NCBI RefSeq assembly: GCF_006965485.1
Contig: NZ_CP041360.1
Coordinates: 2,356,001-2,420,000, forward strand
Reading direction: 5' to 3'
From: Spirosoma sp. KCTC 42546
Lineage (GTDB): Bacteria; Bacteroidota; Bacteroidia; Cytophagales; Spirosomataceae
Length of the DNA: 64,000 bases
Every line of letters starts with the position of its first letter. The stretch's first letter is position 1. This document shows, piece by piece, positions 595-52,073 of the stretch. The translations under genes and the position numbers were made by a program. The notes below the pieces were generated by a model, which was not told the DNA's origin, searched no databases, and saw only the letters and a program-made list of their open reading frames with translations.

Positions 595-680
595 AAAAAA
601 GAAGAGTGAAGAATGTAGAATGATGAATATAGGGAAAATTCCTAACTCTCATTATTCTAGACTCTTCACTCTTCTTTTTT
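595..680. repeat. Intergenic palindrome IPE-1 (dps / Nramp gap)
   Basis: The arms at 595-624 and 651-680 are reverse complements at 27 of 30 positions. The 5' arm is purine-rich (AAAAAAGAAGAGTGAAGA and onward). It fills the gap between the dps stop and the Nramp start and could form a large RNA hairpin in either direction. Confidence 0.85.
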
Positions 681-691
681 CACTATTATTC

Positions 692-1165
692 CTAAGATAG
701 ATACTTTCTCAGCATCCAGGCCATTGCTTCATGAGCCTCCATAAGTCCCGTCAGAAAATCGGCGGTACCGGCGTCCTTCAGTTCTTCGTCACACTTTTCA
801 ACATCTTCACGGAGTTCGCGAACGATTTGTTCATGATCTGATAAGAGATTCCTGAACATATCAGCCGTGTCTTTGGGTTTTCCTGAGTCTTCTTTCAGGC
901 TGGTATTATGAATAAACTCAGCCATTGTAGCCAGAGGGGTACCCCCTAACTGTCGGATGCGTTCGGCCACTTCGTCAATTTCGGCCTCTATAGCCTTGTA
1001 CTGACTTTCAAAGAATTTATGGTACTCCATGAAATTCGGTCCGGCGACATTCCAATGGTATTTTCGGGTTTTAATATAAAGTACGTGAAGATCTGACAGG
1101 AAGTCGTTTAGGAGGGTGTTGTCCTGTTTTAAGACATCTTTTTCAAGGCCTATATTGGGTTGCAT
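692..1165 (-). CDS. dps: Dps-family ferritin-like DNA-binding/iron-storage protein
   Basis: 157 residues, the usual Dps length. The protein forms 12-subunit shells that oxidise Fe2+ with hydrogen peroxide, store the iron and protect DNA. The ferroxidase signature is present: H37 in KYHWNV, H49, D64 and E68 have the same spacing as the E. coli set H31/H43/D58/E62. It starts at the ATG at 1165. A palindromic element lies downstream, before a metal transporter gene on the same strand. There is no extended lysine-rich N-terminal tail, so DNA binding may be weak (inference). Confidence 0.95.
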   Translation of the reverse strand: MQPNIGLEKDVLKQDNTLLNDFLSDLHVLYIKTRKYHWNVAGPNFMEYHKFFESQYKAIEAEIDEVAERIRQLGGTPLATMAEFIHNTSLKEDSGKPKDTADMFRNLLSDHEQIVRELREDVEKCDEELKDAGTADFLTGLMEAHEAMAWMLRKYLS

Positions 1166-1259
1166 AACGATAACGTGAGTTTAATTGACTTGGTAATTCA
1201 TTGCAACCTGCGTTGTGCAGGCTACTGATGAATAACCGTCAATTGAGCTGTTTGTTTCA

Positions 1260-2198
1260 TTATCCTACTAAGTCGGCAAAAACGTTTTTAGCATAGGCTA
1301 TATCCTGTTTAGTAGCTTCTACAGGACCCATTGTATTGGGCGAGCCTTTTTCCAAACACTGTTCCAGAACTAGTAAAGGCCGAACGCCCAGCGTTTTTAA
1401 CTCGGCGGCAAGACGTCGGTAATCAATGTCCCCATCGCCGAAGGTTTCCTGCCAAATGCCTTCCCGCGATTGACGGATATGGATCTCAACAATCCGCTTG
1501 CCGTAGAGTTTCACGACGTCGAACAAGGCTACTTGTGAGTTTCCGGACCCACGATAAACCCAGTGTGCATCTAAACAAAGCGATACATGTTTGGGATCAG
1601 TTGCCAGCAGCATATGGTGAAACTCCCGGGCGGCTTGCCGGTGTTCAGGAGCATGGGTATGGTAAGCTAGGGTGATGCCGCGTTTACGTAATTCAGCGCC
1701 CAGCCGATCAAGATTTCGAGCTTGCTCCGTCAACTCAGCGTCGGTTTTATCATCATTGCTGCCCCACTTAATCGGACTGGGATTCGTAACAAAAAGGGTT
1801 GTACCGGCAGGTCGGGCAGCATCGGCAATAGCCAGAACGGTATCGATGGATTTTTGGGCCTCAGCGGCTTGATGAAGTGTGCTGTTAACGTACAATGAAG
1901 GCATCGCCAGCTTATAGTTCGTTAATAGCGGTAGGAGTTTAGTGACTTCTTCGGCCGAGTTCACGGCTGGTTCATAGGCCGTCAGGCCCGACTGTACCAG
2001 TTCGCGAAACGATACATCTGGGTCAGCCATCCAGGTCTTACCCTGTCTTCCGTAGAACGTTAGCCAGGTATAGGAATTGCAGGCAATTGGAAATGATTTG
2101 GCAAGTGAAGCTGCCTGAGCTTGCTGGTGTATAGTGAATAATGAGCTACCGGCCAGCGCGGTGAGTGAGCCCAGGAAATGACGACGGTCTAGATTCAT
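1260..2198 (-). CDS. Exported sugar phosphate isomerase/epimerase-like TIM-barrel protein
   Basis: 312 residues. A Tat-type signal opens the protein: R5-R6-H-F-L-G, then a hydrophobic stretch to about residue 29. The rest has the xylose isomerase-like TIM-barrel pattern, with candidate metal ligands in YHTHAPE, CLDAHW, EIHIRQ and the late LEQ. Members act on sugars or inositols with a bound divalent metal; the substrate here cannot be told. Tat export suggests a cofactor-loaded enzyme folded in the cytoplasm. It lies alone between dps and an ABC ATPase gene. Such Tat-exported isomerase-like proteins are common in Bacteroidota and Planctomycetota. Confidence 0.8.
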   Translation of the reverse strand: MNLDRRHFLGSLTALAGSSLFTIHQQAQAASLAKSFPIACNSYTWLTFYGRQGKTWMADPDVSFRELVQSGLTAYEPAVNSAEEVTKLLPLLTNYKLAMPSLYVNSTLHQAAEAQKSIDTVLAIADAARPAGTTLFVTNPSPIKWGSNDDKTDAELTEQARNLDRLGAELRKRGITLAYHTHAPEHRQAAREFHHMLLATDPKHVSLCLDAHWVYRGSGNSQVALFDVVKLYGKRIVEIHIRQSREGIWQETFGDGDIDYRRLAAELKTLGVRPLLVLEQCLEKGSPNTMGPVEATKQDIAYAKNVFADLVG

Positions 2199-2325
2199 AG
2201 AGGGTACTAGTGCAAGATTGGAGCCAATGGACTCTACTGCATGGATAATCTGTACCCTACACTCAATAGAATCTAACGATCTAAAGAGTTAAAATCTGCC
2301 TACTTACTTATTCTTTCAACTAGAA

Positions 2326-3006
2326 TTATCCGCCTAGTTCCACTACTTGCCCATCCTGACAACGGAGCACACGGGCGGGGTATTTATTTAACAAATCGTA
2401 GTTATGCGTAGCCATAAGCACAGCTGTTCCGGCATTGTTAATGGCCTGAAAGACTTTCATGATCTGATCGGCTACAGACGGGTCGAGGTTACCCGTTGGT
2501 TCATCGGCGATAAGAATGAGTGGCTCATTGAGCATGGCACGGGCAATCACCACACGTTGCTGTTCACCGCCTGAGAGTTGGTGAGGCATTTTTTTCTGGG
2601 CCGTACCCAGACCAACCTGCATGAGCACATCGGCAATGCGGTTGTTCATGTCGGTCTTACTCGACCAGCCAGTTGCTTTAAGAACAAACTTTAGATTGTC
2701 TTCAACAGAACGGTCGGAAAACAACTGAAAATCCTGGAAAACGATGCCAATTTTTCGGCGAAGTTGAGGGACATCGCGGGGTTTGAGTGCTTCAAGAGAA
2801 TAACCTGCAACAAGACCTTTCCCATTCTGAAGCCACAAATCGGCATATAGGGTCTTAAGTAATGATGTCTTTCCACTCCCGGTTCGACCAATAAGATAGG
2901 CAAAATCGCCCTTATTAATCTGAAACGATACATCGCCTAAGACCAACTTCTTGTCCTGATAGATATCGGCGTGGTCGAGTGTAAGGACGGATTCTGTGGA
3001 AAACAT
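2326..3006 (-). CDS. ftsE: FtsE-like ABC transporter ATP-binding protein
   Basis: 226 residues, typical for FtsE. The Walker A motif (GRTGSGKTS, residues 40-48), the Q-loop (VFQDFQLF), the signature LSGGEQQR, Walker B ([13 protein letters not shown]) and the switch histidine (ATHNYD) are all present. FtsE pairs with the membrane protein FtsX to control peptidoglycan hydrolases during division. No FtsX-like gene is adjacent, so the assignment rests on sequence resemblance alone. A LolD/MacB-type ATPase is the main alternative, since these share the same signature. Palindrome IPE-2 lies between this gene and the upstream aldolase gene. Confidence 0.8.
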
Positions 3007-3031
3007 AAATTGGGTTATCGTATAAAGTTTA

Positions 3032-3100
3032 CGGTTTATGGTTTACGGTAGGCTGGCGCAAGAAATTATGACGCGCCAGCCTACCGTAAACCATAAACCG
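3032..3100. repeat. Intergenic palindrome IPE-2 (fsa / ftsE gap)
   Basis: A perfect 28-bp stem (3032-3059 with 3073-3100) and a 13-base loop. The 5' arm is built of GTTTATGGTTTACGG-like units and ends in a GGCTGGCGC core next to the loop. The same text reappears in IPE-20 near 44.5 kb. Confidence 0.95.
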
Positions 3101-3111
3101 AATACCGTATC

Positions 3112-3771
3112 TTACTTTTTCTCAACTTTCGCGTGATCAGCCAGGAATTTGGCGAGGCCACTGTCTGTTAATGGGTGATTGAGCAACATTTTAATAACGC
3201 CCAAAGGAGCCGTCATAACATCAGCACCGATTTCGGCGCATTGAATAACGTGCATTGGGTGACGCACCGATGCGGCCAATACTTCGGTTGTATAGCCGTA
3301 GTTGGTATAGATATTCACAATTTGTTCGATCAGGGCCATACCGTCGGTCGAGATATCGTCTAACCGACCTACGAATGGCGATACATAGGTAGCACCCGCT
3401 TTGGCAGCCAACAGCGCTTGACCAGCTGAGAATACCAGTGTGCAGTTTGTACGGATGCCTTTTTCGGAGAAATATTTAATGGCTTTGATGCTATCGCCAC
3501 TCATTGGCACTTTTACCACGATGTTCTCGTCGATATCAGCCAGTTCTTCGCCTTCCTTAATCATCTCATCGTAGGTAGTCGAGATGACTTCTGCGCTGAC
3601 ATCGCCCTGTACGATTTCGCAAATCTGCTTGTAATGCCGCATTACGTTATCTTTTCCCGTAATACCTTCTTTGGCCATCAGGGAAGGATTGGTTGTAACG
3701 CCGTCTAGGATTCCCATTTCCTGGGCCTCCCGAATGTCAGCCAGATTGGCTGTGTCAATGAAAAATTTCAT
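3112..3771 (-). CDS. fsa: Fructose-6-phosphate aldolase / transaldolase-like protein
   Basis: 219 residues, the length of the small MipB/TalC (Fsa) class and much shorter than classical transaldolase. Key positions are visible: D6 in FIDTAN, T26-T27-N28 in the GVTTNPS strand, and the Schiff-base lysine K87 in NIVVKVPM. These enzymes either split fructose-6-phosphate or perform transaldolase transfer in the pentose phosphate pathway. In Bacteroidota many members are true transaldolases, so the name fsa is tentative. It is followed by galactokinase upstream on the same strand, forming a small sugar-metabolism cluster. Confidence 0.9.
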
Positions 3772-3833
3772 GGTAAAATAGAGTTAATTAATTGTTTGTG
3801 GTCAGTAGGTCTATAAGCTGCTTTTCACGTCAT

Positions 3834-5006: not shown

Positions 5007-5092
5007 CTTGGGTTTAGGGAATTTAGCGGTTTGATACAGCTAAACGCAGAACCCGCTAAACAGCGTAACCGCACTGGGCGGAAATAAAAAAT

Positions 5093-5182
5093 GGCAAACC
5101 AATGTCTCACCGCTACGACCACCTACCCTTGCTTCGGTCAAGACCTGGGGGATTCAGCAGGAGCTGGTAGCACCGATTTGCC
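5093..5182 (-). ncRNA. ffs: Signal recognition particle 4.5S-type RNA
   Basis: The minus-strand transcript of about 90 bases opens with GGCAAATC and closes with GGTTTGCC, giving a terminal stem. The middle holds the conserved SRP domain IV text CCCCCAGGTCTTGACCGAAG followed by CAAGGGTAGGTGG, with the CAGG / AGCA internal-loop halves that bind Ffh. The apical loop differs from the usual GGAA tetraloop. A run of T follows the closing stem (ATTTTTTATTT), which would end transcription. A TAACTTTG promoter box sits four bases upstream. It lies between the TPR lipoprotein gene and galK. Confidence 0.88.
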
Positions 5183-5186
5183 GATG

Positions 5187-5219
5187 CAAAGTTAAGCAAT
5201 TGTTAGCCAAACGACCAAA
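5187..5219 (-). promoter_or_regulatory. Promoter of the SRP RNA gene
   Basis: On the minus strand TAACTTTG (5187-5194) matches the Bacteroidota -7 box TAnnTTTG, and a TTTG at 5216-5219 is a candidate -33 box at 21 bases spacing. The RNA would start within a few bases of 5182, which fits the folded SRP RNA end. Confidence 0.65.
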
Positions 5220-5228
5220 TTTCGCACG

Positions 5229-5236
5229 TACCTTTG
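5229..5236 (+). promoter_or_regulatory. Candidate -7 box, divergent promoter toward the TPR lipoprotein gene
   Basis: TACCTTTG is an exact TAnnTTTG match pointing right, 10 bases from the SRP RNA -33 candidate. No well-spaced -33 TTTG is clear: the nearest TTG (5200-5202) is 26 bases away. A leader from here would carry palindrome IPE-3. Confidence 0.4.
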
Positions 5237-5252
5237 TCTAAATTAAAATTAA

Positions 5253-5340
5253 TTGTGAATGAGTGAATAAGTGAATGAGTGAATAAAAGCACATGACAGC
5301 TAGTCACTCATTCTCCCATTCACTCATTCGCTCAGTCAAT
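5253..5340. repeat. Intergenic palindrome IPE-3 (upstream of TPR gene)
   Basis: The 5' arm (about 5253-5286) is made of GTGAATGAGTGAATAAG units and the 3' arm (about 5304-5340) of the complementary CACTCATTC units. The match is imperfect. It ends two bases before the ATG of the TPR gene and lies in a divergent gap. Confidence 0.7.
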
Positions 5341-5342
5341 CA

Positions 5343-6065: not shown

Positions 6066-6073
6066 AGTATTTT

Positions 6074-6141
6074 GTGAAATAAGTGGCATACGTGAAATAG
6101 GAGGGAGGCTTCTGCTCCAATACTTACTTCACTTATTTCAC
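6074..6141. repeat. Intergenic palindrome IPE-4
   Basis: GTGAAATAAGTG at 6074-6085 pairs exactly with CACTTATTTCAC at 6130-6141. The flanks, including GGAG/CTCC nearer the loop, continue the pairing imperfectly. It lies between the TPR gene and the TMEM220-like gene, both on the plus strand. Confidence 0.7.
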
Positions 6142-6169
6142 GTACACCACCGATTAACTAAGAAATAGA

Positions 6170-6520
6170 ATGCGTAAAACCCTTTGTATCATTTTTGGCC
6201 TGCTTTTCATTCTGTTCGCGGTCGTTCAGTACAATGATCCTGACCCTGAGGTATGGATTCCAATTTATGGACTGGCCGCTGCCGCTTGTTTTATGGCTTA
6301 TGCAAGGGTGGGGCAGTGGTGGTTTTTTGTGGTATTAGCGGCTGTTTATGTTATAGCCGCTATTTACCAATGGCCCCCAAAGTTTGAAGGATTTTTATTC
6401 AGCGAAGTGGGCATGCGCAGTATGAATATCGAAATGGCCCGAGAAGCTGGAGGACTGGCTTTGGTTGCCGCTGTCATGGTCGTGCTGGCAATATGGGCTC
6501 GTCAACCAATTCGTCGATGA
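6170..6520 (+). CDS. TMEM220-like small membrane protein
   Basis: 116 residues with about four hydrophobic helices. The first helix ends in VVQYNDPDPEVWIPIYG, the hallmark of the transmembrane family 220 (TMEM220). The biochemical role of the family is unknown. The stop codon overlaps the ATG of the following HMG-CoA lyase gene in an ATGA arrangement (6517-6520), which implies translational coupling and suggests a shared role in leucine or ketone-body metabolism (inference only). Confidence 0.8.
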   Translation: MRKTLCIIFGLLFILFAVVQYNDPDPEVWIPIYGLAAAACFMAYARVGQWWFFVVLAAVYVIAAIYQWPPKFEGFLFSEVGMRSMNIEMAREAGGLALVAAVMVVLAIWARQPIRR

Positions 6521-12292: not shown

Positions 12293-12349
12293 AGTCAGTA
12301 AGTGGCTAATCAGCGAAAGCAGCAATTCAGCCTCTGCAACTTACTGACT
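12293..12349. repeat. Intergenic palindrome IPE-6
   Basis: AGTCAGTAAGT (12293-12303) pairs exactly with ACTTACTGACT (12339-12349), directly after the stop codon of the kinase gene. It shares AGTCAGTAAGTGGCT with IPE-10 and IPE-14. The neighbours are convergent. Confidence 0.75.
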
Positions 12350-13275: not shown

Positions 13276-13647
13276 ATGGAAGCACACACAAAGAAAACCT
13301 TGGTTGTTGGAGCCACCGAAAAGGCGGGTCGCTATGCAAATTTGGCCGCCTATAGTTTGCTTCGTCACGGCCACGAAATTGAACTGGTTGGCTTACGGGA
13401 AGGCCAGATTGAGGGAAATCCGATTCGAACAGGGCAGCCAGTGCTCGAAGATATCGATACCGTCACGATGTATGTTGGGCCACAAAACCAACCCAACTTA
13501 TACGACTATATCAAAAGCCTGAAGCCCCGCCGGGTAATTTTCAATCCAGGTGCCGAAAATCCAGAATTTGAGAAACAGCTTCAGGCTGAAGGTATCCAAC
13601 CCATTGAAGCCTGTACACTCGTCATGCTGTCGGTAGGAACGTATTAG
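13276..13647 (+). CDS. CoA-binding domain protein (YccU-like)
   Basis: 123 residues from the ATG at 13276. It is a single CoA_binding_2 Rossmann domain: KTLVVGATEKAGRYANLAAY, then GHEIELVGLREGQIEG, DIDTVTMYVGPQNQPNLYDY and RRVIFNPGAENPEFE. Such small stand-alone domains resemble the nucleotide-binding half of succinyl-CoA synthetase but have no catalytic module; their role is unknown. The E-N-P-E near the end of the domain is conserved in the family. The stop codon at 13647 directly abuts a long palindrome shared with the convergent fabH. Confidence 0.88.
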   Translation: MEAHTKKTLVVGATEKAGRYANLAAYSLLRHGHEIELVGLREGQIEGNPIRTGQPVLEDIDTVTMYVGPQNQPNLYDYIKSLKPRRVIFNPGAENPEFEKQLQAEGIQPIEACTLVMLSVGTY

Positions 13648-13749
13648 TTAAATGGTGGAGTAGTTGTATTGGTGAAGTATGTGTGGTTGTGATTTTACTT
13701 TTAGCACTTACTCCACATACTTCACCAATACAACTACTTTACCATTTAA
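13648..13749. repeat. Intergenic palindrome IPE-7 (CoA-binding / fabH)
   Basis: 36-bp arms (13648-13683 and 13714-13749) with two mismatches. The 5' arm has no C at all. The left arm begins right after one stop codon and the right arm contains the stop and last codons of the convergent fabH. Confidence 0.95.
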
Positions 13750-14746
13750 TTAATGCAGATGCCCAGGTAAAACCGCTTCCGAAGGCCGCCAGGCAAACTA
13801 AATCACCGGGATTAATGCGCCCCTGTTCAAAGGCTTCGGTCAGGGCAATAGGAATAGAGGCCGCTGTAGTATTACCGTACTGATGAATATTATTAAATAC
13901 TTTCTCTTCCGGTAAATTCATCTGCTGACGAACATAGTCCGAAATGCGGATATTTGCCTGATGCGGGACTAATAGGGCAAGATCGTCGGATTTATAGCCG
14001 TTTGCCTCAAGACTCTCGTTTATTACCTCCATGAACCGCACTACAGCGTGTTTAAAAACGGTATTACCATTCATCGTCACGTTATAGTTGCCATCGGTTA
14101 GCGTACTTTCGGTGAGCCAACGCCCTTCCCGACTGCTGCCCGGATCGCGCACATATAGTTCTTCGGCATAGCGCCCATCAGCGTGAAGGTGGGTAGATAA
14201 AACCCGGTGCTCAGGGTCTGTCGTGGCCTGTACAACGGCCGCTCCGGCACCATCACCGAAAATGACAGCAACTCCCCGGCCCGCATTACTTTTATCTAAA
14301 AATGTTGACTGGATTTCCGAGCCGACCACCAGAATGGTTTTATACATTCCCGTTTTAATGAACTGGTCGGCTATTGATAGCGCATATACAAAGCCCGAAC
14401 ACTGGTTCCGAATGTCGATTACTCCAATGCCTTCTAGCCCTAATTCGCGCTGCATCAGAAAGGCCGACCCAGGGAAATAGTAATCCGGTGTTATAGTTGC
14501 ATAAACAATCAGGTCAACGTCTTTGGCCACCAGATTCGCCCGATCGAGCGCCATACGGGAGGCCGCCGTTGCCATACTGGCATTCGTATCTTTTCCGTGG
14601 GTAAAGTACCGACGTTGTTTAATACCCGTCCGTTCCTGTATCCAGGCATCGGAGGTGTCCATATACTGGGTGAGGTCATCGTTCGTAACAATGGTATCTG
14701 GAACGTAGAAACCTAACCCTTTAATACTTGAATAAATTGTATTCAT
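13739..14746 (-). CDS. fabH: 3-oxoacyl-ACP synthase III (KAS III)
   Basis: 335 residues, normal length. FabH condenses acetyl-CoA (or a branched acyl-CoA) with malonyl-ACP to start fatty acid synthesis. The early motif DTSDAWIQERTGI and the catalytic triad are visible: C116 in RNQCSGFVYAL, His in LVPHQANIRI and Asn in YGNTTAASIP. The glycine-rich C-terminus AAFGSGFTWAS completes the thiolase fold. It starts at the ATG at 14746; purS lies upstream on the same strand after its own terminator. In Cytophagales, which make iso-branched fatty acids, branched primers are likely (family knowledge). Confidence 0.95.
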   Translation of the reverse strand: MNTIYSSIKGLGFYVPDTIVTNDDLTQYMDTSDAWIQERTGIKQRRYFTHGKDTNASMATAASRMALDRANLVAKDVDLIVYATITPDYYFPGSAFLMQRELGLEGIGVIDIRNQCSGFVYALSIADQFIKTGMYKTILVVGSEIQSTFLDKSNAGRGVAVIFGDGAGAAVVQATTDPEHRVLSTHLHADGRYAEELYVRDPGSSREGRWLTESTLTDGNYNVTMNGNTVFKHAVVRFMEVINESLEANGYKSDDLALLVPHQANIRISDYVRQQMNLPEEKVFNNIHQYGNTTAASIPIALTEAFEQGRINPGDLVCLAAFGSGFTWASALIKW

Positions 14747-15206: not shown

Positions 15207-15874
15207 GTAAAAAGTGAAAGAATAATGTAAAGTAGAATAATAAGCGGGATGGCTGCAAACTGCAAAAATAACAGGAGTAGTATAGATGCGATCAGAAAAC
15301 TGTATTTAATCTGATTATCAGCCCAGCCAAACGACTTGAATTTGAGCGCAAAGAGAGGTATTTCTGTCACCATCATAAACGAGAAGGCAATCATCATACC
15401 CAGGCCAATATCGTTTTTCCAGATGGCATCGAACTGAGGCTGATAGCGTTCCATAAGCGGAAACGCAGCAATCAGCATTGTATTAGCGGGCACGGGTAAG
15501 CCAAGAAAAGATTCTGACTGGCGGGTATCGATGTTAAAATTCGCCAGGCGTAAAGCAGCCAGAATAGCAATCAGAAAAGCACCGTACGAAATTGAGCCGA
15601 GTCCCTGAAACCACCCAAGCTGAAAGACGATTGCAGCCGGTAAAACACCAAAGGTTACGACATCGGCCAATGAATCCAGTTCTTTCCCAAATGGGCCCGA
15701 TACTTTCACTAACCGGGCTACGAAACCATCCCCAAAATCGAGAACAGCTGCAAGCATTATCAACCAGGAAGCTGTTTCCAGATGCCCACGTAAGGTCATG
15801 ACCAATCCGATACAACCACACAGCAAATTGCCACAGGTCATAGCGTTAGGTAAGTGTTTGAAGAGAGATTTCAA
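15188..15874 (-). CDS. pssA: CDP-diacylglycerol-serine O-phosphatidyltransferase
   Basis: 228 residues with several membrane helices. It makes phosphatidylserine, the precursor of phosphatidylethanolamine. The CDP-alcohol phosphotransferase motif is complete: D49-G50-x2-A53-R54-x8-G63-x3-D67-x3-D71. The start is a TTG at 15874, immediately preceded in frame by a stop, so no upstream start is possible. That start codon lies inside the left arm of palindrome IPE-9, and the C-terminal codons lie in the arm of IPE-8, so both ends of the gene border palindromes. Confidence 0.93.
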   Translation of the reverse strand: MKSLFKHLPNAMTCGNLLCGCIGLVMTLRGHLETASWLIMLAAVLDFGDGFVARLVKVSGPFGKELDSLADVVTFGVLPAAIVFQLGWFQGLGSISYGAFLIAILAALRLANFNIDTRQSESFLGLPVPANTMLIAAFPLMERYQPQFDAIWKNDIGLGMMIAFSFMMVTEIPLFALKFKSFGWADNQIKYSFLIASILLLLFLQFAAIPLIILLYIILSLFTKERKS

Positions 15875-15951
15875 TTATAAATGATGAATTAATTATGAAT
15901 TATAACTGATGAATTGCTTAGTAGAGATTTACAATTCATCATTTATAATTG
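15872..15951. repeat. Intergenic palindrome IPE-9 (hydrolase / pssA)
   Basis: A perfect 19-bp stem, 15872-15890 with 15933-15951. The left arm contains the pssA TTG start codon; the right arm contains the stop and last codons of the upstream hydrolase. The interior repeats ATGATGAATT and ATTATGAATT units. Confidence 0.9.
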
Positions 15952-16588: not shown

Positions 16589-16686
16589 TAGTTGGTAAGT
16601 TTGGTAAGTCGATAAGTCAGTAAGTGGCTGACGCCTAAGTAATCTATATGCGTCAGCCACTTACTGACTTATCGACTTACCAACTA
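16589..16686. repeat. Intergenic palindrome IPE-10
   Basis: A perfect 34-bp stem (16601-16634 with 16650-16683) and a 15-base loop. The arm ends in GTAAGTGGCTGACGC next to the loop. Outside the left arm the unit TTGGTAAGT is duplicated (16592-16600 copies 16601-16609), so the outermost bases pair only after skipping one copy. Confidence 0.97.
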
Positions 16687-17399: not shown

Positions 17400-17491
17400 T
17401 TTTAAACGCAAAGGGCGCTAAGGTAAGCGCAAGGTACGCAAGGAAAAGCTTAGCGCTCTTTGCGCTTACTTAGCGCCCTTTGCGTTTAAAA
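17400..17491. repeat. Intergenic palindrome IPE-11
   Basis: The outer 23 bp pair perfectly (17400-17422 with 17469-17491), and the inner part continues imperfectly. The arm is made of ACGCAAAGGGCGCTAAG units. The right arm encodes the last residues (NAKGAK) of the neighbouring hydrolase, and its stop directly precedes it. Confidence 0.95.
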
Positions 17492-24090: not shown

Positions 24091-24162
24091 TTTAAACACA
24101 GAGACACAGAGCACAGAGATAAAAAACATTTGCATTTAAAATTCTGTGTCTCTGTGTTTAAA
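24091..24162. repeat. Intergenic palindrome IPE-13
   Basis: A perfect 20-bp outer stem (24091-24110 with 24143-24162) with arms of CACAGAGACACAGAG type, between two plus-strand genes. The following frame stays open through the right arm. Confidence 0.92.
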
Positions 24163-26600: not shown

Positions 26601-26695
26601 TTAGTAAGTAAGTTGATAAGTCAGTAAGTGGCTGACGCGAGAGCAATGCATACATCTGCTACTTACTGACATCAATTTACCGACTTACCAACTAT
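26601..26695. repeat. Intergenic palindrome IPE-14
   Basis: Imperfect arms (about 26601-26640 and 26655-26695). The left arm contains GATAAGTCAGTAAGTGGCTG followed by ACGC, the same 24 bases as in IPE-10. It ends one base before the ATG of the polyprenyl synthase gene, so it forms that gene's leader. Confidence 0.88.
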
Positions 26696-26696
26696 A

Positions 26697-27671
26697 ATGC
26701 CCCTTACCGTCGCTGATATACAGGCTCCTATTGCTGTCGAAATGGAATTGTTCGAACAGAAGTTCCGGGGGTTGATGAAGAGTGACGTCATGCTCCTCGA
26801 TCAGATTACGAAGTACATTGTGAAACGGAAAGGCAAACAGCTTCGCCCAATGTTCGTGTTTCTGATGGCGGGTGTTTGTGGACAAATTAATGAATCGACC
26901 TATCGGGGAGCCTCTCTCATTGAATTGTGCCACACTGCTTCTCTTGTCCATGACGATGTTGTTGATGAGTCCAACTATCGACGTGGTTTCTTTTCCATCA
27001 ATGCTCTATGGAAAAATAAAGTAGCCGTTCTTGTTGGCGACTATTTGCTGACGCGTGGTCTCTTTCTGGCCGTTGATAATAATGATCATGATCTGCTTCG
27101 GATTGTTACCATGGCTGTACGTGAGCTGAGCGAAGGTGAATTGCTTCAGATAGAAAAAGCCCGGCGATTAGATATTACCGAGGCTGTTTATTACGAGATA
27201 ATCCGCCAAAAAACGGCTTCCCTGATTGCGGCTTGTTGTGCCGTAGGTGCACAATCGGTCGGTGTTAATAAGACTCTGGTTGAGAAGGCACGGGTTTTTG
27301 GGGAAAAAGTTGGAATCGCCTTCCAGATTAAGGACGATCTGTTTGATTACGGTACCGCCGAAGTTGGGAAGCCGCTGGGTATTGACATCAAGGAGAAAAA
27401 GATGACGCTGCCACTTATTTATGCACTTAATAAGGCTGGCTTCTTCGAGAAACGACGCATAATAAACATCATCAAAAACGAGAGCGAAAAGCCCAAAAAA
27501 GTCAATGAGGTAATTGCCTTCGTCAAGAATTCAGGCGGCATTGAGTACGCGACTCAGGCAATGAATCAATATGTTGCCGAAGCCCAGGAGTTGTTAAACG
27601 CCTTTCCTGACTCGCGCTATCGGCAGTCCTTACACCAACTTGTGCAGTATACTATTGATAGAAGTAAATAG
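26697..27671 (+). CDS. Polyprenyl diphosphate synthase
   Basis: 324 residues, the size of all-trans long-chain prenyl synthases. The first aspartate motif is LVHDDVVDES near residue 85 and the second is QIKDDLFDYG near residue 215; KRKGKQLRPMF gives the IPP-binding Lys/Arg. It extends farnesyl diphosphate with isopentenyl units, probably to the side chain of menaquinone. Small residues just before the first motif (HTAS) are consistent with a long product. The gene starts directly after palindrome IPE-14, and the convergent desaturase gene lies beyond IPE-15. Confidence 0.94.
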   Translation: MPLTVADIQAPIAVEMELFEQKFRGLMKSDVMLLDQITKYIVKRKGKQLRPMFVFLMAGVCGQINESTYRGASLIELCHTASLVHDDVVDESNYRRGFFSINALWKNKVAVLVGDYLLTRGLFLAVDNNDHDLLRIVTMAVRELSEGELLQIEKARRLDITEAVYYEIIRQKTASLIAACCAVGAQSVGVNKTLVEKARVFGEKVGIAFQIKDDLFDYGTAEVGKPLGIDIKEKKMTLPLIYALNKAGFFEKRRIINIIKNESEKPKKVNEVIAFVKNSGGIEYATQAMNQYVAEAQELLNAFPDSRYRQSLHQLVQYTIDRSK

Positions 27672-27674
27672 TAT

Positions 27675-27754
27675 ATAGTATTAGTAGTGAGGAGTTGCTG
27701 ATGCAACCCAATAACGGGCGTCAGGAACTCCTCACTCCTCACTACTAATACTAT
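27675..27754. repeat. Intergenic palindrome IPE-15
   Basis: A perfect 21-bp outer stem (27675-27695 with 27734-27754). The right arm has an extra 7-bp copy (GTGAGGA twice when read on the minus strand); skipping it restores pairing into a GTTnCTGAnGC core. It lies between convergent genes. Confidence 0.93.
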
Positions 27755-28523
27755 TTTTCGTTTTCTCCCCAAATAGTCGATGAAAATCCGGACTTTCTGT
27801 TTTCATCCACTTATCCCAAAAAGTGAAGTATAAACCATAGTTGAACCGAAACTGGGTGTGGTGCAGGCTATGGTGCGTCGCGCCGATTAGCCAGCGTCCT
27901 AGCCAGTGATTGTCAAAGTTTTTTGGGTAGATTTCAGTATTCAAGTGGTTGACCGCGCTTGACAGGGTCATAATCAATAAAATAATCCCTACTGCCGAAA
28001 TATGCAGAGGCAACACAAATGTCATTATCGGAATGACAATGGCCTGTAATGTACTCTCAATCGGGTGAAACGAGAAAGCGGTCCAGGGTGACGTTGTAAT
28101 ACTATCATGGTGCGTTCTGTGAACCCATTTATACACGCCCGGTCTGTGCATCCAACGGTGAAGCCAGTAATAATAGGTTTCGTGGATAAACAGAACTAGT
28201 ATAATGCTGACCGGATACCACAGCAGTGGATAAGCATGAAAGTTTACATAGATTTTAGTATAGCCTGCCTGATAAGCCAGAATGACCCCCATGGCAATAG
28301 CCGTAAAGATGAGTGATGTCAGCAGCGACCACCGAATCTCTCGCCAATCCTGACCCGGTTTTCGAGGGCGTGTTTGCACGGCCCTGTGGGCAAACTGGTT
28401 TTTCATCGACACCTTGAATAGCCACCAGAATGCCAGCGAAAAAAGGACGTATCGCCCAAAAATAGCGCCGAAAAATAGTAGAGCTGTCAGCCAGAATGTA
28501 GCAGAACCAGTAATCTGAATCAT
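27732..28523 (-). CDS. Sterol desaturase / fatty acid hydroxylase family protein
   Basis: 263 residues with four to five membrane helices. The di-iron histidine boxes are visible: HETYYYWLHRWMHRP, then HRTHHDS and HSLHHTQF. Members hydroxylate or desaturate lipids (sterols, fatty acids, carotenoids); in Bacteroidota many act on carotenoids or sphingolipids, but the substrate here cannot be read from sequence. It is convergent with polyprenyl synthase and divergent from pafA. Confidence 0.92.
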   Translation of the reverse strand: MIQITGSATFWLTALLFFGAIFGRYVLFSLAFWWLFKVSMKNQFAHRAVQTRPRKPGQDWREIRWSLLTSLIFTAIAMGVILAYQAGYTKIYVNFHAYPLLWYPVSIILVLFIHETYYYWLHRWMHRPGVYKWVHRTHHDSITTSPWTAFSFHPIESTLQAIVIPIMTFVLPLHISAVGIILLIMTLSSAVNHLNTEIYPKNFDNHWLGRWLIGATHHSLHHTQFRFNYGLYFTFWDKWMKTESPDFHRLFGEKTKNSISSEE

Positions 28524-28741: not shown

Positions 28742-30394
28742 ATGCGTCTGATTTCTTCCGTTTTGCTGTCGTCTTTGCTCACGATAACAGCCTTGGCTCA
28801 ACCTAAAAAAATACCTTTACCAGCCCGCTCACCGTTAGCTAAACCTAAACTCGTTGTCGGAATTGTAGTCGATCAAATGCGGTACGATTACCTGTATCGG
28901 TATTATGCTAAATATGGTACGGGTGGCTTTAGGCGGCTGATGGATGAGGGGTTCAATGCCCGTAATAACCATTATCATTACGCAGCTACGTATACAGGCC
29001 CTGGTCATGCAGCTATTTATACGGGATCGGCCCCTGCTCTCAATGGCATTGTTGGTAATGACTTTTATGAGCGGAATATTGGCCGATTACTCTATTGTGC
29101 CGAGGATACTACAGTTAGTACGGTGGGTAATACAGGTAGTGCGGGCAAAATGTCGCCCCGGAACTTGCTCGTAACAACGATTGGTGATCAGCTTAAGCTT
29201 GCTACCGATGGTCGGGCTAAAGTTGTTGGGATTGCCTTGAAAGATCGGGGAGCCATTCTGCCAGCTGGTCACGCTGCCAATGCTGCCTATTGGTTCGATT
29301 CGAAAGATGGTAACTTTATTAGCAGCACATTTTATCAGAAGGAGTTACCTCAGTGGGTACAGGCATTTAACGCCCAGAAACTGCCCGAGAAATTTATTAG
29401 TCAGAAGTGGGAGCCTACATTAGCGTTGAACCAATATACAGAAAGCACTTCAGACGATCAATCGTATGAAGCAACAATGCCGGGTGAAGCCAAGTCTGTT
29501 TTCCCACATGAATTCGTTGTTCAAACCGGCAGCAGTAAATATGAAGTGCTGCGCACCAGCCCGTACGGAGATCAGATTACGAAAGAGTTTGCGCTGGCTG
29601 CGATAAAAGGAGAACAGTTGGGTCAACATGATGTAACCGATATGCTTTGCCTAAGTTTTTCATCACCTGATTACATTGGCCACGCTTTTGGGACGCACGC
29701 CATAGAAACCGAGGATAACTACATTCGTTTAGATCGGCAATTGGCTGATATTTTTGCCCAGTTGGATGCAACTGTTGGAAAAGGACAATGGGTAGCCTTT
29801 CTATCGGCCGATCACGGCGCTGTTGATGCACCGGGTTTTTCACAGCAATATCGGATTCCGGCTGGTGTAAAGACCTATGGAGAAATTGGCGAAACGGTGA
29901 AAGCTACGCTCGAAAAAGCCTATGGCCCAGGGCAATGGATGCTGTCTTATATCAATCAGCAGGTTTATCTGAACCATGCCTTATTAACGGAGAAAAAGAT
30001 CGCCATGCAGGAGGTTTATGAATTGCTTCGGACTACCTTGCTTAAACAGAAAGCGGTAGTCAACGTGGTTAATTTACATAACTTGGGGGCCGAAGCGTTG
30101 CCTCTCTTGCAGGAAAATCTGTTTCGGAATGTTTATCATCCCAATCGTAGTGGCGATTTCTACGTAATGCAATCCCCAGGCTGGATCGAAGGACGGAATA
30201 AAGGCACTACACATGGTACTACCTATGCGTATGACACCCATGTACCATTCCTGCTCTACGGCTGGGGTGTAAAACCCGGTCAGACTCTCCGCCGGACACA
30301 CATTCATGATATTGCCCCTACAATTACGGCGCTACTTGGATTATTAGAACCCAATGGAAGCATTGGCAATCCCGTAGAGGAAGCAATTAAGTAG
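28742..30394 (+). CDS. pafA: PafA-type alkaline phosphatase
   Basis: 550 residues with a signal peptide ending TALAQ near residue 20. It belongs to the alkaline phosphatase / nucleotide pyrophosphatase superfamily. The first metal aspartate is in VVDQM (D44), the nucleophile threonine in AATYTGPGHA (about T85, equal to T79 of the Elizabethkingia enzyme) and the phosphate-binding pair is in LKDRGAILPAGH. The second metal site is SADHGAVDAPG. It releases phosphate from esters in the periplasm. Its stop codon TAG is the first bases of palindrome IPE-16, and birA is convergent. Confidence 0.94.
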   Translation: MRLISSVLLSSLLTITALAQPKKIPLPARSPLAKPKLVVGIVVDQMRYDYLYRYYAKYGTGGFRRLMDEGFNARNNHYHYAATYTGPGHAAIYTGSAPALNGIVGNDFYERNIGRLLYCAEDTTVSTVGNTGSAGKMSPRNLLVTTIGDQLKLATDGRAKVVGIALKDRGAILPAGHAANAAYWFDSKDGNFISSTFYQKELPQWVQAFNAQKLPEKFISQKWEPTLALNQYTESTSDDQSYEATMPGEAKSVFPHEFVVQTGSSKYEVLRTSPYGDQITKEFALAAIKGEQLGQHDVTDMLCLSFSSPDYIGHAFGTHAIETEDNYIRLDRQLADIFAQLDATVGKGQWVAFLSADHGAVDAPGFSQQYRIPAGVKTYGEIGETVKATLEKAYGPGQWMLSYINQQVYLNHALLTEKKIAMQEVYELLRTTLLKQKAVVNVVNLHNLGAEALPLLQENLFRNVYHPNRSGDFYVMQSPGWIEGRNKGTTHGTTYAYDTHVPFLLYGWGVKPGQTLRRTHIHDIAPTITALLGLLEPNGSIGNPVEEAIK

Positions 30395-30473
30395 TGGAGT
30401 AAGTGAAATGGGTGGAGTTAGTGCAGTCGATTAGCCTGCTGCACTAACTCCACCCATTTCACTTACTCCACTA
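30392..30473. repeat. Intergenic palindrome IPE-16 (pafA / birA)
   Basis: A perfect 35-bp stem (30392-30426 with 30439-30473) and a 12-base loop. The 5' arm (TAGTGGAGTAAGTGAAATGG and onward) has only one C. The left arm begins with the pafA stop codon, and the right arm holds the birA stop. Confidence 0.97.
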
Positions 30474-33995: not shown

Positions 33996-34029
33996 AAAAA
34001 AGGGCTTCCCATTCAGGAAGCCCTTTTTT
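33996..34029. terminator. Bidirectional intrinsic terminator between ftsH and yfcE-like gene
   Basis: AAAAAAGGGCTTCC pairs with GGAAGCCCTTTTTT around a short loop. T-runs lie on the 3' side on both strands, serving both convergent genes. Confidence 0.93.
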
Positions 34030-34534: not shown

Positions 34535-34619
34535 AAACACAGAGGAACGAAGATTTTCACAGAGAACACAGAAAAATAGTCTCTGTGTTCTCTGTGAAAA
34601 TCTTCGTTCCTCTATGTTT
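34535..34619. repeat. Intergenic palindrome IPE-17
   Basis: 38-bp arms (34535-34572 and 34582-34619) with one mismatch and a 9-base loop. Arms carry AACACAGAGGAACGAAG units. It lies in the 99-base gap between two minus-strand genes, filling most of it. Confidence 0.97.
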
Positions 34620-37736: not shown

Positions 37737-37816
37737 TCAGTGATGATGAAATTACAGTTAGGTGGGCTAAGATACAAAAAGAAGCACACTACGAGTCCAC
37801 CCTAAAGAGAACAAAA

Positions 37817-37867
37817 TGAAAACTGGCTGATTTAACGAATATTATTCGTTAAATCAGCCAGTTTTCA
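37817..37867. terminator. Perfect 24-bp palindrome after ppk1, terminator-like
   Basis: TGAAAACTGGCTGATTTAAC and onward at 37817-37840 pairs without mismatch with 37844-37867; the loop is ATT. On the minus strand a T-rich run (TTTTCATTTTG) follows the stem. It differs in type from the IPE family (small loop, no repeat units) and probably ends the ppk1 transcript. Confidence 0.75.
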
Positions 37868-37965
37868 TTAGCCATATTTTGCTTAGATGAGGGTGGTCAG
37901 TATAGGCAAAATGTATGACTATGGATTGAGAATCGCATGAGGTCTCTGCAAAATTCATCTGCCCC

Positions 37966-42697: not shown

Positions 42698-42728
42698 ATC
42701 AAGCCGAATCAGATTGATTCGGCTTGAT
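42698..42728 (-). terminator. Intrinsic terminator of the small unknown gene
   Basis: ATCAAGCCGAATCA pairs perfectly with TGATTCGGCTTGAT around a 3-base loop, and TTGTTTT follows on the minus strand. Confidence 0.92.
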
Positions 42729-43169: not shown

Positions 43170-43243
43170 AGTTTGACGTTTATAGTTTGAGGTTTGTAGT
43201 TAGCAGCAGTTAACTACAAACCTCAAACTATAAACGTCAAACT
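43170..43243. repeat. Intergenic palindrome IPE-19
   Basis: A perfect 33-bp stem (43170-43202 with 43211-43243) and an 8-base loop. Arms are made of GTTTGACGTTTATAGTTTGA units. It fills most of the 91-base gap between ald and the small unknown gene; an extra GTTTGTA unit precedes the left arm. Confidence 0.97.
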
Positions 43244-44472: not shown

Positions 44473-44553
44473 GGTTTACGGTTTATCGTTTATGGTGGGC
44501 TGACGCAAGAATAACTGATGCGTCAGCCCATCGTAAACGGTAAACCGTAAACT
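44473..44553. repeat. Intergenic palindrome IPE-20
   Basis: 35-bp arms (44473-44507 and 44519-44553) matching at 31 positions, made of GGTTTACGGTTTATCG units and ending in the core GGCTGACGCA. It fills most of the gap between tsaE and ald and shares text with IPE-2. Confidence 0.95.
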
Positions 44554-46543: not shown

Positions 46544-46551
46544 GGTTGCTA

Positions 46552-49500: not shown

Positions 49501-49752
49501 CGAGAAAATAAGCGTTTTTGCGCCCGTGGGTAGATTCAGTTGGTACGTCCCCTGCGCATTGCTGGTAGCACCTACGTTGGTGCCTTTGGCCTGAATGGTT
49601 GTGCCTGCCAATACCTCGCCAGTTGTGGCATCGGTTACCGTGCCGGTAATTGTTGATTGGGCGTAAATCAACTGAGTCGACAGAAATAGTAGACCAAATA
49701 ACACCCATTGTCGGTACCCATGTCGGGTAGATTCTGGTAATGGAGTCATCAT
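46552..49752 (-). CDS. SusC/RagA-like TonB-dependent receptor (pair 1)
   Basis: 1066 residues from the ATG at 49752 (or the next codon). An earlier start at 49809 gives a hydrophobic non-signal extension and is less likely. Signal peptide ending LIYAQ; carboxypeptidase-regulatory-like domain (ITGTVTDATTGEVLAGTTI); TonB box region ALSEVVVVGYG; plug with VASFDQALAAKIAGVQV and DPLYVIDGIPL; DASASAIYGSRGSNGVVLITTKRG; then a barrel ending in ..VGLNLSF. It imports substrates with SusD 1, 8 bases downstream. Confidence 0.95.
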   Translation of the reverse strand: MMTPLPESTRHGYRQWVLFGLLFLSTQLIYAQSTITGTVTDATTGEVLAGTTIQAKGTNVGATSNAQGTYQLNLPTGAKTLIFSFIGYQPLEIAVGNQSVVNAKLTATDNALSEVVVVGYGVQNKRDITTAIGSVKAKDLANQPVASFDQALAAKIAGVQVTQTSGAPGAALSIRVRGTGSISAGNDPLYVIDGIPLSRDTKYATGGTNTQFPDNPINVMSTVNTDDIESIEVLKDASASAIYGSRGSNGVVLITTKRGKEGKTVINYDSYVGVQNVSKKIDMLNAYEYAQLSYEAKNNAYLDRNPTGKPTDSNTIRNAGVGAPSTLIQPEIVPYLSGQAGLTNTDWQDAIFRSATIQNHTLSISGGKENVKYYLSGNYLNQRGVVINSGFKRYGMRANVEVKNGRLTAGINFNPTYSYHDLIKAEGPYLGEGVVGLALQMPPLFPVYNADGSYNFGGNAWGYGATSILNPVAIANQVSDKLSQLRLLGNAYAQYEIIDGLSYRLSVGTDINSFQRDYYRPSTLEIRDRKGASTPTGFSRAQNFVNWLVENTLNYNRSFGQHTISALAGFSSQKDRRVANELTATNFPNDLVTTLNAGQVTSGSSDVQEWSLLSYLGRVQYDYAGKYLLSGAIRADGSSRFGKANRWGYFPSVSAGWNVSQETFLKSVNWLSDLKIRASYGLTGNFQIPNYGSVSLLNYSNYILGNETVVSGLAPGNSANDKLKWEKTAMLDVGFDVSFLRNKLNLTVDYYNANTSDLLLNVPVPRASGFSTELQNIGKVNNQGIEFTLGTRQTFGRLRWDASANIASNRNEVKALGPAGDPIIVAGGVAGAQFITQIGHPIGEYYTMIYDGVFKNQAEIDAYPHTTTTRPGDFKFRDNNGDGKIDFSSDRAVTGSYFPKYTFGFNTSFAYAGFDLAVAVQGVQGHKILNLIRRYIYNMEGNGNLFRGALDRWQSADNPGNSLVNRANRLASGSNGEISTWHIEDGSYVRVRNITLGYSLPAGVLSRLHLSRARLYVTTQNPFTFTKYLGFNPEVNSRPDSALSSGEDYGTYPLARTTSVGLNLSF

Positions 49753-50202
49753 AAATGGTAGAATTAGAATTACAGGTTGAATTGATAAAATTGAAAAAGG
49801 CATCAACAACTGGTTTGATGACCTACAATAATACTTCGCAAAGCTCGATTTTTTTTAATATAGTATTAATACTTAATGTGAAGAGACATACTGGAGAAGT
49901 AGGCCTGTAACGCAAGATAAAGGCATTTTCGAGGCTAAACGGCAGTCTTCTTACGGCTTTTTTATAGATTTTAACTCTCGTTTAGGATAATATATGGATT
50001 AAGTAGTTATATAGGGTGTTAGGCGTAGCGCAAGACAAAGCTTTATGTTGATGGTATGGCTATAAATACTAGTAAAGCGAACCCGTTTATCAACTGTATT
50101 CTAGACTTTTTTCTTTCAACTACCCAAAATTTATCTCTAAATACTTCCTTATCCCTGATAGATTTATGCCTATGAAGCTTGCTAAGCTGTACTGAGTTGG
50201 AA
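49753..50202. other. Intergenic stretch, about 450 bases, leader of SusC pair 1
   Basis: AT-rich. A 12-bp palindrome AGTATTAATACT lies near 49860. No gene was recognised and no clear TAnnTTTG box with a good partner was found. The neighbouring terminator at 50203-50237 isolates the two pairs. Confidence 0.5.
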
Positions 50203-50237
50203 CAAAAAAAGGGACTAAGTAAGCGATACTTAGTCCC
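50203..50237 (-). terminator. Intrinsic terminator of SusD pair 2
   Basis: GGGACTAAGTA pairs perfectly with TACTTAGTCCC, and a run of T follows on the minus strand (AAAAAAA at 50204-50210 on the plus strand). Confidence 0.93.
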
Positions 50238-50259
50238 TCCGAAATAAGGTTGATGACGT

Positions 50260-51990
50260 TTAATTATATCCTGGATTCTGAGTCAAGGTTTCTTTCCCAT
50301 CTTTTTTACTGTTGAAAATCTCCTGGATTGGAATAGGGAAATATTCGTGCTGGCCTTTGATAAACTTGACGCCGTTCAGGTAAATCCGTTTAGGAGCTTC
50401 GCCAACATAATAGGCGTTTAAAACCTGATCGGCTATTCCCCAGCGCACAAGATCGAACCGACGATGGCCTTCCATGCCGAATTCCAGCCGTTCTTCAAAC
50501 TGAACGGCTTTGCGGGCCGTAGCCTGATCCGTCCAGGATGCGCTGTACGGTTTAATGACGTAATTAGCTGCAGCTGTTCCATCGGCATTTTTTACAAATC
50601 CATCGGGGTTAGCCGCCCGTTGGCGAACCTGATTGACGTAGCCGCGTGCTTTGTTCAGGTCGCCAATTTCCACTTCAACCTCTGCTAACCAAAGCAATAC
50701 GTGGTCGTAACGAATCATGCGGTAGTTGTTGGCATTCAGGCGAGGGTTACCGGCAAAGGTGTTTGTACCCACATCCGATTTGTACATCACGTGCTTTTTG
50801 GGCGAATAAGGGCCACCGTAGGCCTGATCACGAACATAGGCTTTGCCCGGATGAACGCCCCAGTCCAGATAGGGAATACCCCGGCGACCAACCGTCCAGT
50901 CCAGCCGTGGATCAACCGGGCCTGCGTAAGGCGTAAATGGCGCTGTTGATTCGACACCCTGATCGCTGGGCAGGTCCGACGCATTAAAGGTGTCTACCAG
51001 TGGCAATCCATTGGCATCGGTTTTGAAAGCGTTCACCAGATTTTGCGAAGGCTGGAAGAAACCGCAGCAGGTTGTTACACCACCACCACCATATGGATAG
51101 TTCAGGGTAGAGCCAATGTTGCCGTTTTCACCACCTGATGCGCCATCGTTAACTGAATACTGCACCTCAAAAATCGACTCCGTATTGTTGTTGGTTACGG
51201 CCTTAAAGTTGTCGTGATACCGGTCCATTAACTTATACTGACCACTGGCCACAATGGCCTCCAGCAGTGGCTTGGCTTCGGCATACTTTTTCTGAAACAA
51301 ATAAGCCTTGGCGAGGGTAGCACCAGCCGCCCATTTCGTTGGCCGACCAACCTGAGTTTGTTTGGTGGGCAGTACGTCGTAAGCAGCTTTGATATCGGCT
51401 ATGATATTGGGCCATATGTCGGTGCTATTCGCTACTTTGGTGCTCTCCAGATCGTTCGGATTGTAGATCTTCTCGTCGATGTAAGGCACCATATTGAACA
51501 TTTTCTTGAGTTCAAGATGGTAGTGCCCCCGTAAGAAACGGGCTTCGGCGATGACTTGGGCTTTCTCCGCATCGGTCATGTCTTTGGCTGCCGCCACAGC
51601 CTGTAACACATCGTTTGAGCGGGCGATGCCGTCGTACATACCCCGCCATTTACCCCGAAAATAGATGTTGTCAGACTGGATATTACCCTGTTCGATCAGT
51701 GAAATAGGCGGTTGGTCACCAGCAATAGTTCCTTTATAGGCGTCATCACTGGCAACACTGCCATACACCCAGTTATCGGCCCCCACATTGTACGAGCGGT
51801 AGGCACCTTCGGCCGTTGCCCAGCCATCCAGAAGGGAATAGGCACCAATTAGTAGAGCATTTACGCCTGTTTTGTTTTGCAGTACACTGACCGCTAAGGC
51901 CGCTTTAGGCTGCACATCTAAGAACTTGTCGGAGCAGGAAGTTGCCACTGCCAGACAAAGCGTAGTTATGAATATCGTTAGTTTTTTCAT
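50260..51990 (-). CDS. SusD/RagB-like lipoprotein (pair 2)
   Basis: 576 residues, longer than pair 1's protein. Lipoprotein signal with Cys19 in VATSCSD. The N-terminal FLDVQPKAALAVSVLQNKTGVNALLIGAYSLLDG is typical, as are RGHYHLELKKMFNMVPYIDE and, near the end, AVQFEERLEFGMEGHRRFDLVRWG with YFPIPIQEI. It serves the SusC-like protein encoded upstream across an 85-base gap holding palindrome IPE-21. Confidence 0.94.
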   Translation of the reverse strand: MKKLTIFITTLCLAVATSCSDKFLDVQPKAALAVSVLQNKTGVNALLIGAYSLLDGWATAEGAYRSYNVGADNWVYGSVASDDAYKGTIAGDQPPISLIEQGNIQSDNIYFRGKWRGMYDGIARSNDVLQAVAAAKDMTDAEKAQVIAEARFLRGHYHLELKKMFNMVPYIDEKIYNPNDLESTKVANSTDIWPNIIADIKAAYDVLPTKQTQVGRPTKWAAGATLAKAYLFQKKYAEAKPLLEAIVASGQYKLMDRYHDNFKAVTNNNTESIFEVQYSVNDGASGGENGNIGSTLNYPYGGGGVTTCCGFFQPSQNLVNAFKTDANGLPLVDTFNASDLPSDQGVESTAPFTPYAGPVDPRLDWTVGRRGIPYLDWGVHPGKAYVRDQAYGGPYSPKKHVMYKSDVGTNTFAGNPRLNANNYRMIRYDHVLLWLAEVEVEIGDLNKARGYVNQVRQRAANPDGFVKNADGTAAANYVIKPYSASWTDQATARKAVQFEERLEFGMEGHRRFDLVRWGIADQVLNAYYVGEAPKRIYLNGVKFIKGQHEYFPIPIQEIFNSKKDGKETLTQNPGYN

Positions 51991-52008
51991 GGCTATGAAT
52001 GGATAATG

Positions 52009-52073
52009 AATAATGGAAAATGAAAAGAGACTCTTTGGCCATATTCCTTATTCATTGTTCATTTTACATTATT
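52009..52073. repeat. Intergenic palindrome IPE-21 (SusC2 / SusD2)
   Basis: AATAATGGAAAATGAA (52009-52024) pairs with 52058-52073 at 15 of 16 positions, and flanks continue imperfectly. It is unusual in lying between the two genes of a SusCD pair. The text resembles the repeats at the start of the TPR gene. Confidence 0.7.

Follow-up and report, generated by a model that had tools for sequence, protein, structure and literature searches.

The short intergenic gaps of a 64,000-nucleotide stretch of the Spirosoma sp. KCTC 42546 chromosome (NZ_CP041360.1, positions 2,356,001–2,420,000 of a single 8.66 Mb contig; hereafter the window) hold long palindromes, which are probably small dispersed elements that are kept near-perfect by DNA-level copying from arm to arm and that gather past stop codons. 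The palindrome set is mixed, with many hairpins built of words of 7–9 bases, some elements like repetitive extragenic palindromic (REP) sequences and some ordinary terminators. The palindromes join known kinds (heptamer repeats, REP-like palindromes and template-switched quasipalindromes) and do not constitute a new category.

Inverted repeats were scored with +1 for a match and −3 for a mismatch, requiring a score ≥ 14 and a loop ≤ 60 (strict threshold). An earlier note on this DNA had listed palindromes in 17 gaps, of which 13 passed this threshold; the remaining four (6074, 12293, 26601 and 52009) hold inverted repeats that are weaker or gapped. The perfect arms that it quoted were exact (35 bp at 30392, 34 bp at 16601, 33 bp at 43170 and 28 bp at 3032), and two palindromes had been missed, at 37815–37869 (27 bp arms, 1-base loop) and 42698–42728. 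The window contained 16 palindromes, compared to 1 in total over 20 dinucleotide shuffles, and extending the search showed that they were abundant in the sampled chromosome and in stretches from relatives. Twenty 20-kb stretches of the chromosome (400 kb in total) held 80 repeats at a mismatch score of −3 and 85 at −2, which extrapolates to roughly 1,700–1,850 palindromes in the whole genome, and palindromes also occurred in stretches from 11 further species of the genus (genomes are given below as G numbers) and in a twelfth, G016. At a score ≥ 24, there were 24 in the chromosome sample (6 per 100 kb), 8 in the window (12.5 per 100 kb), 0–12 per 100 kb in the 11 relatives, 1 in 320 kb of 16 other Bacteroidota genomes (0.3 per 100 kb) and 0 in 100 kb of E. 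coli K-12. Palindrome density is high in the genus and variable within it; the lowest values were those of the G009/G021 pair (L117–L126), with 0 and 1 per 100 kb, far below their congeners. Although degenerate repeats in the arms inflate self-similarity, it is hardly conceivable that the palindromes reflect chance, low-complexity sequence or an assembly artefact, given the shuffled controls, the presence in 11 other species and the values for E. coli and other Bacteroidota. The observation was confirmed and extends beyond the window.

Arm-to-arm copying was indicated by changes mirrored between the arms. Four close species pairs were compared (G001–G022, G005–G004, G010–G027 and G009–G021), in which 66 of 80 palindromes were alignable and 14 were left out (10 without an orthologous place and 4 not alignable). 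With 58 arm pairs that were already mismatched and 71 with gaps set aside, 1,466 arm pairs were compared: 1,259 were unchanged, 123 were changed on one side only, 70 were changed on both sides and remained complementary, and 14 were changed on both sides and did not. The 70 complementary doubles compare with about 5.0 expected under independence (3.8 + 0.7 + 0.4 + 0.1), which is the arm homogenisation seen in template-switched quasipalindromes. Doubly changed pairs occurred at a frequency of 0.066 at true partners vs. 0.013–0.022 at slid partners in G001–G022, and two reverse directions as well as the G001–G015 comparison were concordant (46 vs. 4.1, 12 vs. 0.9 and 16 vs. 2.5). When G015 was used as outgroup for 11 double changes, 6 polarised to one lineage (5 to G022 and 1 to G001), 4 had a non-Watson–Crick outgroup state and 1 a third state. 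Most differences between the palindrome at 43170 and that of G008 were also mirrored on both arms, as read by eye. Among palindromes of other phyla built on the word CACAGAG, the base between words was mirrored in 106 of 139 cases (62.8 expected), a count that leans to mirroring since only positions inside finder-detected arms were used.

Loop inversion was assessed in 118 palindromes, of which 67 were dropped: 18 had no orthologous place, 7 had arms that could not be aligned, 9 had a partner without palindrome, 6 had another palindrome in the partner and 27 had a loop < 7 nt. The 51 loops scored (≥ 7 nt) comprised 32 in forward orientation, 6 that matched as reverse complement and 13 that were undecided, with about one false inversion expected at the cut-off; spacer inversion, as in template-switched quasipalindromes, was therefore found. 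Two of the inverted loops were exact over 8 and 9 bases, and one was marginal (p 0.012). A looser test (18 inverted, 57 forward and 14 ambiguous of 89) counted some species pairs both ways and was superseded.

Mirrored arm changes and loop inversion both fit DNA template switching. Under such a mechanism, the replicating strand would fold back and one arm would template the other (quasipalindrome correction), which would re-perfect the arms after mutation and now and then flip the loop. Together with slippage between words, template switching may allow the sequence to drift fast while the palindrome persists, and accumulation past stop codons would reflect the least harm done there. Excerpts of published work, on which all citations here draw, describe arm homogenisation and spacer inversion as the outcome of DNA polymerase template switching (PMC8604942) and propose template switching as a keeper of hairpins (PMC8794818). 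The hairpins treated in those excerpts share paired arm changes and spacer inversion with the palindromes studied here, but they are RNA genes and yeast coding DNA rather than long palindromes in bacterial gaps.

Orthologous gaps contained no palindrome, an alike palindrome or one from another word family, and gap 13,643 held several kinds across seven genomes (by eye). Relative to an arm similarity of 8.5, the 95% point for different gaps, 74 of 114 co-occupied pairs outside the G001/G015/G022 trio had a similarity < 9 and 23 had ≥ 12, compared to 14 of 21 pairs with ≥ 12 inside the trio. Two gaps measured 5–18 nt in species without the palindrome vs. 50–95 nt in those with it. We considered that gaps might be refilled as functional hotspots, since a first test gave 67 co-occupied pairs vs. 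48.0 expected (0/20,000); this reading was dropped after inherited and unrelated pairs were split, as unrelated pairs numbered 43 vs. 43.8 expected (35 vs. 40.1 in gaps ≥ 35 nt; 32 vs. 38.9 without divergent gaps). The excess over chance arose only from alike copies, which argues against particular gaps requiring a hairpin. In G003, two gaps (L092 and L094, corresponding to window positions 44474 and 5257) carried a CCGGGCCGCYGG segment placed symmetrically in both word-built arms, as though one arm had gained an insertion and passed it to the other.

The earlier note had proposed a dispersed class of RNA or DNA hairpin elements for transcript ends or gene insulation, and gap occupancy and stop-codon distances bore out a position near the 3′ ends of genes. 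In the own genome (464 kb, window plus sample), 26 of 67 convergent, 56 of 220 co-directional and 5 of 60 divergent gaps were occupied, and in relatives (1.39 Mb) the corresponding numbers were 92 of 214, 98 of 693 and 9 of 211, i.e. 39–43%, 14–25% and 4–8%. This bias was not an effect of length because divergent gaps were the longest on average in both sets. Palindromes in co-directional gaps started a median of 11 nt past the stop codon, and 88 of 119 in convergent gaps were within 25 nt of both stops (47 extended into a called open reading frame (ORF) end), with genes called as greedy longest ORFs, such that start-side distances are biased and stop-side distances less so. Placement avoids promoters, which is compatible with a 3′-end function and with simple tolerance alike.

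A role at transcript ends would make the palindromes RNA 3′-end hairpins that terminate transcription or stabilise mRNAs and mostly lack a U-tract, with pairing kept by selection on the transcript. We consider this account quite unlikely, although the proximity to stop codons favours it, bacterial inverted repeats in general are enriched past stop codons (excerpts of PMC13155455), and the gap after ftsH holds a true terminator stem (AAAAAAGGG) in G008, G003, G015 and G016 that alternates with a different, longer palindrome in G001 and G022. Selection for transcript pairing would be expected to raise G-U above A-C among transcribed-strand mismatches; however, co-directional gaps gave 21 G-U vs. 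26 A-C here and 47 vs. 52 in relatives, and the one-sided changes in such gaps included 15 G-T and 19 A-C pairs. Double changes comprised 39 transitions and 31 transversions (44%), and single changes 78 and 45 (Fisher p 0.36), such that doubles show no favour for changes reachable via G-U. The U-tract of intrinsic terminators was found at a minority of palindromes, with TTTT downstream of 11 of 57 and 21 of 100 in co-directional gaps (AAAA in 9 and 6). Canonical terminators, for which shuffled controls gave 0.02–0.05 and which may sometimes be the palindrome itself, occurred at 54 of 192 convergent ends with a palindrome vs. 51 of 236 without, and at 25 of 109 vs. 113 of 456 co-directional ends. 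Unrelated co-occupancy at chance and the palindromes in some divergent gaps also count against transcript selection. Intrinsic terminators resemble the palindromes in placing a hairpin past the stop codon, but the palindromes mostly lack a U-tract and any RNA-pairing signal, and usual terminator stems are shorter than these arms. Thus, with no G-U bias, few T-runs, terminators about equally common without palindromes and no excess refilling of gaps by unrelated palindromes, the transcript-ending or gene-insulating function proposed in the earlier note is not supported, and we infer that a role in transcription, although it may exist, is not needed to account for the data.

Equally dispersed, and present in many copies and several families per genome, are the gap palindromes known as REP sequences and their doublets (REPINs), which are linked to REP-associated tyrosine transposases (RAYTs; excerpts of PMC3733652 and PMC6006769). 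REP-like elements belong to the palindrome population; that the population consists of REP/REPIN-like elements mobilised by RAYT-type transposases is, in our judgement, very unlikely. The genome encodes five RAYT-like (Y1_Tnp) genes, one of which has on one side a GGTTTCTCAAAACC palindrome whose string recurs in the chromosome sample. Another (L027) lies between near-identical long inverted repeats (1121–1263 and 1857–1998, scores 47 and 46) and is probably a RAYT unit with its own repeat family, and a third (L025) has a GACAGG...GGATT-like palindrome (330–398) at a distance of about 1.1 kb. Gap 34535 is occupied by GTAG-bearing palindromes in three relatives, and for Bacteroidetes RAYT subclass 2.6 there is a precedent of atypical flanking structures that lack the usual tag and have further copies in the genome (in excerpts of PMC6006769). 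Against mobilisation by RAYTs, the exact strings of CACAGAG, AATGAATAATG and TTTACGGT were absent from the five Y1_Tnp loci (about 1.5 kb each side) and GTAAGTC occurred once, in a search of these four words; with that one exception, no RAYT-like gene was flanked by a tested word. The palindromes also differ from the REP/REPIN elements of those excerpts in their word-built arms of up to 41 bp. By-eye reading placed GTAG within the arms at 13643 and 43170 and CGTC within the GGCTGACGC core, and recognised no unpaired GTAG/CGTC end tag in the window palindromes. No target-site duplication, a sign of miniature inverted-repeat transposable elements, was recognised by eye in five gaps, Y1_Tnp being the only transposase type searched. 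As separate observations, a Y1_Tnp gene in L024 adjoins GCCCTGAAAGGGC palindromes (1255–1398), a string not found in the 464 kb read of the genome, and a word like that of L025 also occurs in palindromes of the chromosome sample.

Several points weigh against maintenance by template switching. One-sided changes (123) exceeded mirrored ones (70), which would make correction slow or partial; ectopic copying from a palindrome of the same family could also alter both arms together, and recombination between arms could be another source of loop inversions. The aligned set contains ordinary terminators, where pairing is selected, and excerpts of the literature report relatively conserved arms near terminators (PMC13155455) and in proteobacterial gaps (as cited in PMC8604942). 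Two word families were more loosely paired, with an inverted partner unit at 41 of 48 AATG and 10 of 19 TGAGTGAA arrays, and some relatives have filled gaps (36–73 nt) without a palindrome. Finally, template switching does not account for the occurrence of one word in about nine phyla.

The arms are written in a vocabulary of short words. Among 85 arms ≥ 18 nt, a significant lag of 7 was found in 22 and of 7, 8 or 9 jointly in 34, compared to 2 each for lags of 4/5/6 and 10/11/12; part of the arms therefore show the 7-base periodic units of heptamer simple sequence repeats. Clustering at a cut-off of 12, just under the 99.9% null value of 12.5, placed 51 of 100 arms in 15 clusters (13 in CACAGAG and 9 in AATGAATAATG), some of the small ones possibly by chance, and left 49 single, some of which visibly bear the words. 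An inverted partner unit, sought within 110 nt with each strand counted separately, was present at 14 of 14 CACAGAG, 5 of 5 GTTTAYS and 3 of 3 GTAAGT arrays. The GGCTGACGC core was common to families with differing outer words, and its TTTACGG form was found in 7 of 36 genomes. These data qualify several earlier statements: that arms differ between loci was overstated in view of the shared clusters, as was a constant architecture, since some palindromes are REP-like and some are ordinary terminators. That the palindromes are not transposed copies was half right, as word families recur genome-wide, CACAGAG even across phyla. Five exact strings built from CACAGAG and ACGAAG words did not occur in any paper of the open-access literature searched, and no paper on these palindromes in the genus was found among the matches listed.

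The exact CACAGAG palindrome pattern was found in at least 120 stretches of species-representative genomes. Among the matches listed (80 of the at least 120 stretches), it occurred in about nine phyla, which we take from record names to be Pseudomonadota, Acidobacteriota, Gemmatimonadota, Planctomycetota, Verrucomicrobiota, Bacteroidota, Myxococcota, Desulfobacterota and Chloroflexota, and one Gemmatimonadetes assembly supplied many of these stretches. The pattern was rare in Bacteroidota (2 of 395 genomes, this one counted) and occurred in 9 of 36 genomes of the genus: this genome held 10 copies, G019 and G032 had 5 each, and six others had 1–2. Several copies per genome in scattered species suggest that the palindrome arrived horizontally and then multiplied locally. 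Ten stretches from contigs listed as viral (L281–L290) also carried the CACAGAG palindrome. The closest published parallels concern other heptamers. Excerpts of a Xanthomonas study (PMC4692102) describe intergenic arrays of GGGAATC, often two in inverted convergent orientation (70 paired cases in Xcc and 75 in Xac), whose length varies between the two species, although an array that is single or paired in one is usually so in the other; unlike that one G-rich word, studied for quadruplexes, many words occur here, several of them nearly always paired, and mirrored changes and loop inversions were measured. Excerpts on TAACTGA of Beggiatoaceae (PMC4679880) likewise describe intergenic heptamers common to distant phyla with no known carrier, but these are nearly all direct and in the main genome mostly just upstream of start codons, whereas ours are inverted and past stops. 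A bolder account, which we regard as unlikely, would see palindromes without a transposase that share a small set of 7–9 base words and spread between phyla, with the hairpin as the persisting unit, whose arms replication errors would both re-perfect and rewrite until the same gap in sister species holds unrelated sequence with the same fold.

Features of the window are given below; no strand is assigned except where stated.

595–680: palindrome with AATG/GTGAAGA-type arms and outer A6/T6.
3022–3110: palindrome with GTTTACG-word arms and a GGCTGGCGC core; its 28 bp perfect arms lie at 3032–3100.
5088–5190, minus strand: Bacteroidales-type small signal recognition particle (SRP) RNA (Rfam 82.7 bits, gathering score 55.2).
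5257–5329: palindrome with GAATGAGT-word arms in a divergent gap.
6078–6155: imperfect palindrome 3′ of a stop codon, with 22 nt arms (82%).
12293–12349: short palindrome with GTCAGTAAGT arms in a convergent gap, below the strict threshold (score 11).
13643–13754: 41 bp arms, 93% complementary, across two convergent stop codons.
15872–15951: palindrome with ATGAATTATAA-type arms, 19 bp perfect.
16601–16683: palindrome with GTAAGTC-word arms and the GGCTGACGC core, 34 bp perfect.
17400–17491: palindrome with CGCAAAG-word arms.
24091–24162: palindrome with CACAGAG-word arms.
26601–26695: gapped palindrome of GTAAGTC words with GGCTGACGC, in a divergent gap.
27666–27756: palindrome with GTGAGGAG-word arms in a convergent gap; 21 bp perfect at 27675–27754.
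30392–30473: 35 bp perfect palindrome starting at the TAG stop codon of 28742–30394.
33996–34029: ordinary bidirectional intrinsic terminator 3′ of ftsH, with the AAAAAAGGG stem.
34535–34619: 38 bp arms (97%) of CACAGAG words.
37815–37869: 27 bp perfect palindrome with a 1-base loop and no word structure seen.
42698–42728: short palindrome with 14 bp arms within a long gap.
43170–43243: 33 bp perfect palindrome with GTTTGAG-word arms.
44474–44552: palindrome of GTTTACG words with the GGCTGACGC core.
52004–52073: weak palindrome of AATGAATAATG words.

Used as a query, the arms of the 16601 palindrome gave 25 matches at 13 places in the genome, itself counted. The SRP RNA gene, the only RNA found in the window by Rfam at gathering scores, shares one divergent gap with the palindrome at 5257. 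The window also encodes SusD and TonB-dependent receptor domains, which, like the SRP RNA type, are in keeping with a Bacteroidota genome.

Long perfect hairpins past genes are usually taken as terminators, and paired arm changes as proof of RNA structure. The paired changes described here bear the mark of DNA copying rather than of RNA selection, such that covariation alone could mislead surveys of RNA structure in such genomes. The genus is suited to measuring arm correction and loop flips, as its genomes hold many natural palindromes and span several levels of divergence, and the scarcity of palindromes in G009 and G021 provides a natural contrast for tracing the cause of their abundance. 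The scatter of CACAGAG over few species of the genus and the phylum and over distant phyla raises the question of a carrier. Overall, the palindromes appear to resemble a self-maintaining kind of spacer DNA more than they do a collection of signals marking gene ends.

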